A DNA stretch of 64,000 nucleotides, from assembly GCA_903934795.1 (NCBI GenBank), contig CAIZPE010000060.1:1-64000 (forward strand). Direction: 5' to 3'. A model generated the notes under the pieces. That model was not told the origin of the DNA and did no database searches. It saw only the letters and a program-made list of their open reading frames with translations. Source of the stretch: an uncultured bacterium. Its GTDB lineage: Bacteria; Pseudomonadota; Gammaproteobacteria; Burkholderiales; Burkholderiaceae_E. Numbering within the stretch: position 1 is the stretch's first letter; every line of letters starts with the position of its first letter. The translations under genes were made by a program, and so were the position numbers. Shown here piece by piece: positions 10,635-15,935 of this stretch.

Positions 10635-11789
10635 TTACTTCTTGGCGTCTGCCGCGGGCGCGGCAGGTGCGGCAGCCGGCGCGGCGCCGGGTGCCGCATC
10701 GCTGGCTGCTGGAGCCGCCGGGGCCGCCGCGGCATCAGCCGTGGCCGGCGCGGCCGCTGCTGCCGCACCAGACACCGCCAGCAGCTCGGGATGGTCCTTG
10801 GCCATCTTCGCGCCATACAGGGGCTTGTAGGCGCCCTGGTGGCAGGTGCCGCAGGCCACCTTGGCGACGTCACCCTTCGGCCCCAGCCGTTCAGCCGGGA
10901 AGGTCTTGGTGAGCGGCTCCATGTAGGCGTTGTTGAGGTCACGGGCCATGCGGATGCCGTGCCACGCGGTGACCCGCTGCGGCGGCGCCTCGCTCCAGGA
11001 CTGGAAGCTGCGCGTGTTGTGGCAGTAGGTGCAGTTCACGCCCAGCGACTCGGACATGTGCACCATCAGCGCGTAGGTGTGCTCCGCCTGCTTGGTGGTG
11101 TTGCGGTTGAACGCTGCGCCGGTGTATCGCAGGGCCTGATCGCCATTCACCCGGATGGGCTTGTCGTCCTTCAGGTACGGCGTGAAGGGATCGAAGGGAA
11201 GCGAGCTCAGCGCCACGCTCGGCGCGGCGATGTTCTGCCCGGCGAGGTCACCCATCAGCGAGTTCTCGTGGCGGCGATCCTTCGGCGCGAACCAGACCTG
11301 CGCCGGCACCGGGTTGCCCCGGTGGCAGGTATAGCAGGTGACCCCGGTGTCGCCGACATGCTTCTTCCAGTCGGCGTTCACATGCTGGGTCATCTGGATC
11401 ATGCGTCGGGCGACCACCTTGGTGTACTTGCTGTCGTCGGCCAGGTTCTGCAGGTTGTGGCAGTAGCCGCAGCCCTGCGTGGGCGCCACCCACTGCGTGA
11501 TCGACGTCATGTGACGGGTGAACTCGGCGACGCTGAGGTCGCCGAGCACCTGCACATTCTGGTAGATCTCCTTCGCCTTGGGCCCGTCGGACGCCGCGGC
11601 CGGCTGCGGGGCCGGTGCGGCATTCAGGCTGGCCTGCGTGGCGAGGGTGCGCGGGTTGTAGACCTGCTCCATGCCCGTGCCGCGATAACCGGTCTGGACC
11701 GAGACAACCGGCGGGCGCTCACAGCCGGCCAGCAGCAGGGCTGCCAGCGGCAGGGCGAGCAGCCGGATCGATTTGGCGAACGTGCTCAT
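10635..11789 (-). CDS. pufC: Tetraheme cytochrome c subunit of the reaction centre (lipoprotein)
   Basis: Four CxxCH motifs (CGYCH, CYTCH, CTYCH, CGTCH), lipobox LLLAGC, Ala/Pro-rich C-terminal tail; ATG overlaps pufM stop. Confidence 0.96.
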
Positions 11790-12760
11790 GGTTTGACTCC
11801 CAGCAGGGCAGGGTCGACGCTCAGCGGATAGACGGCGGGGTAGGACGGCACCACGTGATGTTTCATCGCCCACAGGTACCAGTTGTCCACGACAGTGCCG
11901 GTCAGCAGGATGCCGATGCCGCCGGTGAGCGGGCACAGCACCGCGAACCACCAGGCCCAGCGGTGGATGGATTCCATGGTGGCGTTGAAGCCCATGGTCC
12001 AGCGCCAGAACAGCGCCGCGCGTTCCGAGGCCGTGCCGCGATCGACGATCTGCTCGATCTCGCGCTCGCCACCGTAGCGGCCCACCGCGAGGATGGTCGC
12101 GCCGTGCATGGCGAACAGCAGCACCGAGCCGTACAGGAACACGATCGACAGCGCGTGGAACGGGTTGTAGAACAGGTTGCCGTGCCGCAGTGACAGCGCC
12201 GAGACCCAGTCGAGGTGCGGGAAGATCCCGAAGGGCACCGCCTCAGACCAGTTGCCCATCAGCAGGGGCCGGAAGAAGCCGCAGACCAGGTACAGCCAGA
12301 TCGCCGCCGCAAAGGCCCAGGCCACGTGCGTGCCCATGCCGAGCTGCCGCGCTCGCCGGTAGGTGCGCACCCACCAGAGCATCATCGAGACCGTGAGCAG
12401 GAAGCCGGTGATGATCCACCAGCCGCCCTGCGCCAGCGGCGGGATGCTCAGGCCGTAGGCCGGTGCGGGCGGCTCCAGGGCCAGCCAGAAGATCTGGCGC
12501 AGCAACTGGATGGGGCTGAAGTCGACCGCCGCCAGCATGTTGAAGCCGATGATGTTGAAGGCCAGCGTGCCGAAGACCAGCGAGGCCACGCCCAGACCGC
12601 CGAGATACACCGGCCCGATCTGCGCATTGCCGATGCGGCCCAGCAGGTGCCACAGGAAGGGCTTGCCGGTGCGCTGCCAGTCGCCGCGCGGCAGCGCGAC
12701 GCCGTCGTGCAGCGGACCCACCGGCTGCACAGCTGTGAAGAGGTTCTGATATTCCGCCAT
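11786..12760 (-). CDS. pufM: Reaction centre M subunit
   Basis: [11 protein letters not shown]..., [42 protein letters not shown]. Confidence 0.98.
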
Positions 12761-12777: not shown

Positions 12778-13602
12778 CTAGCGCCAGATCGGCATGTTGA
12801 GCCACCAGCCCCACCACTCGGGCCAGCTGCGTGTCCAGAAAGGTCCGCTCACCACGATGCACAGGGCGGCGAACCACACCGAGGCCAGCGCCAGGAACAG
12901 GCCCAGCCGGTGGATGCCCAGGGTGCCGACCGAATAGCCGATGAAGTCGCGGAAGAAGGTGTCTTCATGCTCCGGGGTCTTCACCACCTCGCCCTTCTTG
13001 GGGTTGGTGGACGACAGCACCAGGCCGCCGTGCATGGACAGCGCCAGGGTGGTCGCGAAGAACAGGCTCGCCGCGATGCAGTGCCACGGGTTGTAGTGGA
13101 AGTGCAGGTACTGGTAGGCGACGTTGCTCACCCAGTCGAGGTGGCTGTAGATGCCGTAGGGGAAGGCATGTCCCCACGCGCCCATCAGCACCGGGCGGAT
13201 CACCTGCAGCGTCACATAGCCGAGGATCGCGAAGCTGAAGGCGACGGGCACATGCAGCCCCATGCCGAGCTTGCGACAGATCTCCACCTCGCGAAGCGCC
13301 CACGAGCAGAAGGCCCCCAGCGCACAGACCGTGATGATCTGCCACAGGCCGCCCTCCATCATCGGCGCGAGGTTCAACCCGTACTTGAGATCGGGCGGCG
13401 CGATGCTGATCTGCCAGAGGTTCCAGGTCGGGCCCATGGCCGCGCCCCAGAGAATCATGGCGGTGCCCACCAGCGTGAAGAACGCGGTGGTGACACCGAA
13501 AAAGCCGACGTAGAACGGTCCGATCCAGAAATCGAACAGGTCTCCGCCGACGAGGGTTCCCCCTCGAACTCGGTACTTTCTCTCGAAGCTCAGCATGGCC
13601 AT
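12778..13602 (-). CDS. pufL: Reaction centre L subunit
   Basis: [57 protein letters not shown]. Confidence 0.98.
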
Positions 13603-13726: not shown

Positions 13727-13924
13727 CTACTTGCCCGGGGGCGTCGGCGCGTTCTGCGAAGCCTTCGCAGCCGCGGCCTTGGCCGTGTCGGGGTGCCAGC
13801 TGTTGATGTTGTAACGATCGCCGCTGATCTGGATCAGATGGATGCTCGTCGAGACGAAAGCGATCAGCAGTCCGGTGAGGATGATCGCCTTGCGTGGGTC
13901 GACGATTCGCCAGTAACGCCACAT
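13727..13924 (-). CDS. pufA: LH1 alpha polypeptide with extended C-terminus
   Basis: [40 protein letters not shown]-terminal W..DPRK plus the TM His; upstream AAAGGA. Confidence 0.93.
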
Positions 13925-13939: not shown

Positions 13940-14161
13940 CTAGCTCAGATGGGAGATGACCGTGTAGACGGCAGACTTCACGCCGCTCCAGGTCGATTGC
14001 GCCCCTTCGGCTCCGGGGAGCCAGGTACGCCAGTTCCAATTCAGCAGTTGCCCGACAACAGCGAGCACCAGGAACACGGCGAACAGCGCGAAGAAGATCA
14101 GGTGTAGCCCGTCGAGGGGCTTGCCGATCGCCATCGGCTGGTCAACGGATTTCAGTGCCAT
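13940..14161 (-). CDS. LH1-beta-like 73-aa single-TM protein lacking the BChl-ligand His (candidate novel puf-operon subunit)
   Basis: ATG preceded by AAGGAGG; located between pufB and pufA; GLHLIFFALFAVFLVLAVVGQLLNWNWRTWL aligns without gaps to PufB EFHKYYIQGYLLWAAGAFFAHSLVWIWRPWF. Confidence 0.8.
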   Translation of the reverse strand: MALKSVDQPMAIGKPLDGLHLIFFALFAVFLVLAVVGQLLNWNWRTWLPGAEGAQSTWSGVKSAVYTVISHLS

Positions 14162-14188
14162 GACTGCCTCCTTGGGTTGGGGTCTATC

Positions 14189-14332
14189 TCAGAACCAGGG
14201 GCGCCAGATCCACACCAGGCTGTGCGCGAAGAACGCGCCAGCCGCCCAGAGCAGGTAGCCCTGGATGTAGTACTTGTGGAATTCCTGACACTCCGCGTCC
14301 GTCAATCCGGACGGATTCACCTTGTCAGCCAT
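14189..14332 (-). CDS. pufB: LH1 beta polypeptide
   Basis: MADKVNPSGLTDAECQEFHKYYIQGYLLWAAGAFFAHSLVWIWRPWF, canonical LH1 beta with two His and the WxWRPW terminus. Confidence 0.97.
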   Translation of the reverse strand: MADKVNPSGLTDAECQEFHKYYIQGYLLWAAGAFFAHSLVWIWRPWF

Positions 14333-14477: not shown

Positions 14478-15935
14478 TCACGCGGGGCTCCCCATCCGGG
14501 GTCGACCAAACAACCTTGAAAGCTGCTCTTCCTGCACCTGCTCGAGGCCGGCGGCGCGCGCGTCGTGCTCGGCGGCATCGCGCATGCGCTTGGCTGCCGA
14601 GATGCGCACCAGCACCGGTTCGGACTCGAGCAGCTGCTCGAGCAGACGGTGCGCGGCCGGATCCCAGGGCATGGAGCCGGTGCCGCTCGCCCGACTGGGC
14701 GTGGCCTCGATGCGGTCCATGTCGGTGGCCAGCGGCAGGATGTGGAAAAGCGCGTCGAACAGCGCGTTGCACACCTCCTGCACCAGGTAGGTGGCGCCGG
14801 CGTAGCCCATGAAGGGCGTGCCGGTGTGGCGGCGGATGATCGCGCCCGGAAACGAAGCCGGGATATAGGCCGCGCGCCCGCCGCACTCGGCGAGGTACAT
14901 GCGCTCGTTGTAGCTGCCGAACAGCACCAGCGGGGTCTGTTCCTGCACCAGCTGGCGCACCGTGGCGTTATCGGTCTTCTCGCCGGGCTTGCGCGCCACC
15001 GCGAAGCGGCAGGGCAGGCCCATCTCGTCTTCGAGGAAGCGGCGTATGCCCCGGGCGTAGGTGTCGTTGGCCACCACCGCGAAGCTGGCGGTGCCGAAGA
15101 AGTCCTGGGTGACCGAGCGCCAGAGATCCCAGAGCGGCTTGATGGTGGTGTGCTTCTCGCGCTCGATGAAGGGCTCGGGGTCGAGATCGAGCAGTTCGCC
15201 GAGCTTGCGCAGGAAACGGGTGGTGCTGTGCAGGCCCACCGGCGCCTGCAGCCAGGGGCGGTCGAGCGCCTCGCACAGCATCTGGCCGAACTCGCGGTAC
15301 AGGCAGATGTTGGCGTCGGCCTCGACCAGGCGCGAGACATCGGCGAGGTGGCTGCCGAGCGGGAACACCATGTTGATCTCGGCCCCGATGCCCTGCACCA
15401 GGCGGCGGATCTCGGCGAGATCGCTCGGCGCGTTGAAAACGCCGTAGCTCGGGCCGATCAGGTTGACGCGCGGCTTCTCGCCGGGGGCGCGCGGCTTGCG
15501 TGCCGGCACCTTGCGCATGCCGTACTCCGACCACAGCCAGAACATGGCGCGGTTGGCGCACTGCCACTGGTCTTCGTCGATGGTGCGCGGCAGGAATCGC
15601 TTGAGGTTGGTGCCCTCGGGCGTGACGCCGCCACCGATCATCTCGGCGATGGAGCCGGTGACCACCACCGCGGGCAGGTCGGGGTCGAGCACGCTGTGGG
15701 CACGCTTCATGGCGCCCTCGGTGCCCTCGCGGCCGAGCTGTTCCTCGGCCAGGCCGGTGACCACGATCGGCAGCTCGTGCGGCGGCAGCGCGTCGCTGTA
15801 GTGGAGCACCGAGGTGACCGGCAGGTTCTCGCAGCCCACCGGGCCGTCGATGACCACCTGCAACCCCTTGATCGCGGTGAAGACATACACCGCGCCCCAG
15901 TAGCCGCCTGCCCGGTCGTGGTCGAGGACCAGCAT
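14478..15935 (-). CDS. bchZ: Chlorophyllide a reductase subunit Z
   Basis: [56 protein letters not shown]; follows bchY. Confidence 0.95.

Follow-up and report, generated by a model that had tools for sequence, protein, structure and literature searches.

A paralogue of the LH1 beta polypeptide without the bacteriochlorophyll-ligating histidine, encoded between pufB and pufA in most phototrophic Burkholderiales

The window, i.e. the whole stretch of 64,000 nucleotides analyzed here, contains on its minus strand a puf operon with the gene order bchZ-pufB-mid-pufA-pufL-pufM-pufC, where ‘mid’ is a working name for a 73-aa open reading frame (ORF; 13940..14161) and for its orthologues. The ORF of bchZ (14478..15935), placed as in annotated bchZ-puf clusters, is followed by pufB (14189..14332), which encodes a canonical, tail-less LH1 beta polypeptide with both His residues present, and, beyond mid, by pufA for LH1 alpha (13727..13924), pufL (12778..13602; PF00124, E 1.9e-95), pufM (11786..12757, with the start at about 12757; PF00124, E 2.9e-105) and pufC for the cytochrome subunit of the reaction center (RC; 10635..11864; PF02276, E 1.9e-144; the 5' limit follows the search, which used the ORF 10635-11951, and the start position is approximate). 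As read from the sequence, mid is preceded by the Shine-Dalgarno sequence AAGGAGG (14167..14173), 5 nt 5' of the ATG at 14161. The ORF coordinates, the neighbors, the sequence and the strong Shine-Dalgarno sequence are all as given in a preliminary description of this DNA. An ORF in the PufQ position was not detected in the 145-bp gap between bchZ and pufB. The search of the whole genome (G000) revealed a single pufB and a single pufA, with no other LHC gene at or near the Pfam cut-off and no LH2 genes detected. In Rhodobacter, the Trp at alpha His+11, which most alphas carry (FNW), hydrogen-bonds BChl; the window pufA has Ile40 at this position, and the resulting YNIN is common to the genus of the window and related genera. 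Given this replacement, the LH1 of the window organism is expected, by analogy, to be blue-shifted.

Among the PDB chains, a phmmer search with mid matched LH beta polypeptides only, the best being 8z81 chain B (1.2e-9), with 7xxf chain B of Rhodopila globiformis at 6.1e-9, and the alignments extend into the tails of the LH1 betas. The same is seen with a profile of 13 mid sequences, for which the PDB matches up to E 10 are solely LH beta chains (best 1.8e-15), with no PufX, protein-W or PufY among them and no deposited chain that equals mid itself; the identification of mid with PufX, W or Y was rejected on this ground. In profile-profile comparisons, mid is closest to tailed PufB (HH probability 98.8%, E 1.3e-16), followed by short PufB (97.1%), against a baseline of 20% for PufA. 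By these sequence comparisons, mid is shown to be a paralogue of the beta polypeptide, which bears out the identification of the ORF as a puf-encoded beta paralogue that had been proposed from the DNA letters; profile similarity to LH beta, named beforehand as a test that could refute this proposal, is significant by both measures (1.2e-9; HH 98.8%). In Pfam and NCBIfam, nothing matches mid above the cut-off: the window ORF is not listed for the Pfam LHC family and the NCBIfam pufB model scores mid at 18.7 bits, with a cut-off of 61. Weak matches to Imm17 and similar families were taken as chance. Relative to the tailed LH1 betas in the PDB (8z81 chain B, 7xxf chain B and 6z5s chain 2 of Rps. 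palustris), mid is homologous along the transmembrane (TM) helix, the W-R-x-W-L-P segment and the tail, and belongs to the same operon, but lacks the BChl-His and the N-terminal SGLTxxEAxEFH, mostly carries S or T in place of the P of WRPW, and sits beside a normal PufB.

The replacement of the BChl-ligating His by Gln, reported for the window ORF, turns out to be part of a family-wide pattern. The site is non-His in 106 of the 107 operons with distinct PufB sequences, the residues being Gln in 88, Ser in 6, Thr in 5, Ala in 2, Lys in 2 and His, Glu, Gly and Leu in one each. His occupies the BChl site only in the mid sequences of two loci of uncultured Curvibacter (L091 and L092), as a result of either reversion or retention of the ancestral state. 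The preliminary description also attached meaning to the alignment of the first His with that of PufB; this part did not hold up, as the His20 column contains 16 residue types, with His in 11 of the 107 sequences, and the match is, judging from the family alignment, a coincidence of the window sequence. The N-terminal motif SGLTxxEAxEFH, near-invariant in PufB, is variable or lost in mid. Conservation across 80 mid sequences is concentrated instead in F23, F27, A34, the segment W44-R45-x-W47-L-P-G-A-E-G and, within the tail, V61, AVYT, Y66 and S70, with W47 and Y66 being invariant.

The AlphaFold2 model of mid, derived from 43 sequences (mean pLDDT 66, a modest value; 76-80 for residues 21-40), together with the column profile, predicts a TM helix at about residues 15-40 (14042..14119), in which A34 is kept and Q38 replaces the ligating His. 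The C-terminal part, residues 44-73 (13943..14032), comprises W44-R-x-W-L-P-G-A-E-G and then a predicted helix 57-72 with AVYTxxS[HQ]L. In a fold search, nothing matched this model significantly, which is unsurprising for a single helix at pLDDT 66. From the homology to beta, the topology of mid is inferred to be N-in, C-out. The prevalence of Gln (88/107), the retention of A34 from the A-x-x-x-H motif and that of W44, R45 and W47 would all fit an atypically liganded beta, in which Gln38 ligates BChl in a tuned pigment site, and Gln does ligate some chlorophylls in plant LHCII. Such a role is nonetheless improbable because S, T, A, K, G, L or E occupies the site in 18 operons where the rest of the protein is still conserved, which suggests that a ligand is unnecessary for the conserved function.

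Most photosynthetic Burkholderiales, including Rubrivivax gelatinosus, carry mid between the two core antenna genes. In an order-wide sample of 400 Burkholderiales genomes, mid is present in 41 of the 49 with RC genes and in one of the 351 without detected RC genes, the latter (G1158) being a draft with a contig that stops just past pufA. Among the 8 RC-bearing genomes that lack mid, 5 have a tailed PufB and 3 have an ORF in the PufQ position instead. All three RC-bearing genomes from the genus of the window carry mid, and the orthologues in the two other phototrophs (G001 and G007) are 97% and 73% identical to the window ORF and occupy the same position. In addition to a family search, one genome per species was scanned, which produced 206 loci; the 80 that were kept are betaproteobacterial as far as the record titles say. 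The carriers of mid include R. gelatinosus DSM 1709, with the order pufB-mid-pufA-pufL-pufM-pufC, R. benzoatilyticus, Limnohabitans, Piscinibacter aquaticus and Rubrivivax pictus, as well as metagenome-assembled genomes named Rhodoferax and Curvibacter. Conservation in relatives had likewise been set in advance as a refutation test for the proposed role of the ORF, and mid is found throughout the phototrophic Burkholderiales (41/49). In one draft genome (G042), two differing pufB-mid-pufA copies (L030 and L044) reside on two contigs, reflecting a recent duplication or a mixture of strains. No mid was found in viral contigs or plasmids, where the sole match, on the plasmid side, was to a tailed Methylobacterium PufB.

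Median pairwise dN/dS values are 0.21 for mid, 0.11 for pufB and 0.18 for pufA; by this estimate, mid is under purifying selection. Its small size and the lack of a curated family that matches it above the cut-off could point to a chance or decaying ORF without a protein function; however, with the dN/dS of about 0.21, the invariant residues over 80 sequences and the near-fixed presence in phototrophs, the probability of this explanation is negligible.

The tail is the second feature, after the ligand site, by which the window ORF had originally been told apart from beta, and here the picture changed. The 25-residue tail had been described as absent from canonical beta, but several LH1 betas of known structure have tails of about this length, as does PufB in some of the related Burkholderiales. 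Some of the Burkholderiales without mid possess a single PufB with both His and a tail, e.g. locus L301 (WRPWLPGSEGYTSMYEGIKAAVYNVVPYAFMG). When compared alone with the mid profile, the PufB tails of L300, L301, L309 and L311 score 20.7-25.5 bits, and all other PufB tails at most 9.7 bits. As far as sequence goes, the tail of mid is shown to be homologous to that of the single, His-bearing PufB in relatives that lack mid. Across 165 pufB loci, the two arrangements are mutually exclusive: PufB is tail-less in all 107 operons with mid, and none of the at least 26 operons with tailed PufB has mid (26 is the number of loci classed as tailed by pattern; a few more tailed PufBs that escaped the pattern are likewise without mid). 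In the PufM tree, the carriers of mid form one group with moderate support (80/82, 81% of bootstraps), and the Burkholderiales with tailed PufB or with an ORF in the PufQ position fall outside of it, so that a single origin of mid within the phototrophic Burkholderiales appears to be the simplest reading.

In the simplest history suggested by these sequences, an ancestral tailed pufB would have been duplicated once, and the two copies would then have divided the labor. Under this scenario, the upstream copy would have kept the pigment site and the N-terminal motif and lost the tail, giving rise to the present PufB, and the downstream copy, mid, would have retained the TM helix, W-R-x-W-L-P-G-A-E-G and the C-terminal helix while losing both the BChl ligand and the N-terminal motif. 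One locus (L093), with FHGIF and Glu at the site, resembles an intermediate form. Three loci from the window's own family (L040-L042, genus g12) have no mid and a PufB with a different tail (PPLEGASLIHGVKVALQEALPIAFSV).

The ORFs located between bchZ and pufB, i.e. in the PufQ position, are denoted QL here. They are 70-98 aa long, often end with EAKAxAxxxxPFAFMG, and are found in many alpha- and gammaproteobacteria, including Candidatus Thiodictyon syntrophicum and Methylobacterium aquaticum; unnamed QL ORFs are present in alpha-, beta- and gammaproteobacteria (L142:2960-3184; L198, L204, L230, L235-L239 and L297-L299). The three QL ORFs scanned with PF05398, the PufQ family, had no match; one of them comes from a member of Chromatiaceae, a family described as having no pufQ (PMC8877833). 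No match to PF05398 up to E 10 was listed for the window ORF, for five other mid proteins or for two proteins in the Q position; true PufQ proteins match it at 3e-39 and 3e-16. Profile-profile comparison connects QL to mid (97.5%, E 6.9e-12), PufB (95.8%) and PufQ (74%); as a lead, QL may be distantly related to all three. In one locus (L302, genome G957), the end of mid (VRKAANSVIPLMFM) resembles QL and tailed PufB, not AVYTFMSHL.

In Rhodobacter sphaeroides, PufQ is a ferrochelatase-binding protein that directs porphyrin toward BChl (PMC5725709), and mid could be its counterpart, acting through ferrochelatase from another position in the operon. This notion draws on the presence of PufQ (PF05398) or QL in alpha- and gammaproteobacteria, on the absence of QL from every operon with mid among the 165 pufB loci, and on the mid-QL-PufQ chain of profile similarities; like mid, PufQ and QL are small single-TM puf products, and QL is weakly beta-like. 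The link between the ends of the chain is much weaker, with HH probability of just 42% for mid and PufQ and no listed PF05398 match. Furthermore, mid is not located between bchZ and pufB, the mid profile gives the isolated QL tails no more than 4.3 bits, and elsewhere QL coexists with tailed PufB. The nearest relative of the mid tail is that of PufB, and in the established LH1 topology the C-terminus of PufB is periplasmic, away from ferrochelatase. A PufQ-like function of mid is therefore a long shot, and PufQ was rejected as its primary identity given the 42% probability and the match of the mid tails to PufB rather than to the QL tails.

Other non-antenna and small proteins of RC-LH1 differ from mid as well. 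PufX of Rhodobacter is, similarly, a small single-TM puf product without an LH1 BChl ligand, but its gene follows pufM, and it is linked to the N-terminus of PufC rather than to beta (PMC9640540); mid does not follow pufM, which is followed by pufC in this operon. Protein-W of Rps. palustris is a non-antenna protein of the LH1 ring, a description that may fit mid too, but it has three TM helices compared with one in mid and is encoded by rpa4402/pufW (PMC7806223). The LH1 gamma and gamma-like polypeptides of Blastochloris and Rhodopila are also extra small TM subunits of LH1; these are, however, peptides of 36 and 22 aa, in contrast to the 73-aa, beta-homologous mid, and the gene of the Rhodopila gamma-like polypeptide lies outside puf, with its product in the opposite orientation to beta (PMC9640540, PMC9788563).

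Taken together, the sequence evidence indicates that mid is probably an accessory part or a builder of the light-harvesting core, not a pigment carrier. The leading interpretation, with a probability of roughly 0.45, is that of a stable, pigment-free accessory subunit of RC-LH1. With one TM helix in a beta-like orientation, such a subunit would expose the conserved C-terminal helix on the periplasmic face of the membrane and perform in trans the function that the tail of beta has in cis elsewhere; the candidate targets of the helix are the closure of the ring or a gap in it, the docking of PufC and the packing of neighboring betas. The tight association of mid with the RC (41/49 vs 1/351) supports a subunit, and the place of mid in the operon, together with the Shine-Dalgarno sequence, favors a stable one. 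The share of Gln at the ligand site exceeds what would be expected under fully relaxed constraint, which counts against this interpretation. Across the TM helix, conservation in mid and conservation in beta show no significant correlation by position (Spearman 0.14-0.33, p >= 0.11), so this comparison lends no support to beta-like packing of mid in the ring.

Mid might act instead as a transient assembly factor that binds nascent alpha and beta or the RC while the ring is being built, in which case it would be absent from the finished complex or present in traces, with the tail serving transiently, like the beta tail before trimming. Such a function is possible, if on the unlikely side. Trimming removes the beta tail from mature LH1 in Rps. 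palustris (PMC7806223), which favors a role in assembly for the tails; the loss of both the N-terminal motif and the pigment site suits a protein outside the ring, and PufQ, another small puf protein, is regulatory, not structural (PMC5725709). The position between pufB and pufA and the strong Shine-Dalgarno sequence argue the other way, as they would suit synthesis at the level of ring components.

A more specific version of the stable accessory subunit, in which the pigment-free beta paralogue interrupts or organizes the LH1 ring on the periplasmic side as a third puf polypeptide besides alpha and tail-less beta, is rather doubtful. If true, it would represent a lineage-specific, independently evolved route to ring opening or quinone exchange, the role suggested in the preliminary description, built from beta as opposed to PufC, in the case of PufX, or to unrelated proteins, in those of W and Y.

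No description of mid was found in the curated families, the PDB chains or the open literature searched, although older papers on Rubrivivax puf may mention the ORF. Few operons in photosynthesis have been studied as thoroughly as puf, and R. gelatinosus is a standard organism in the field, yet a conserved third gene of the pufBA type in this operon has neither a family name in Pfam or NCBIfam nor a deposited structure. If beta did split into one half that binds pigment and another that is tailed and ligand-less, this would provide a natural test of the role of the beta tail and may inform how the betaproteobacterial RC-LH1 is built.
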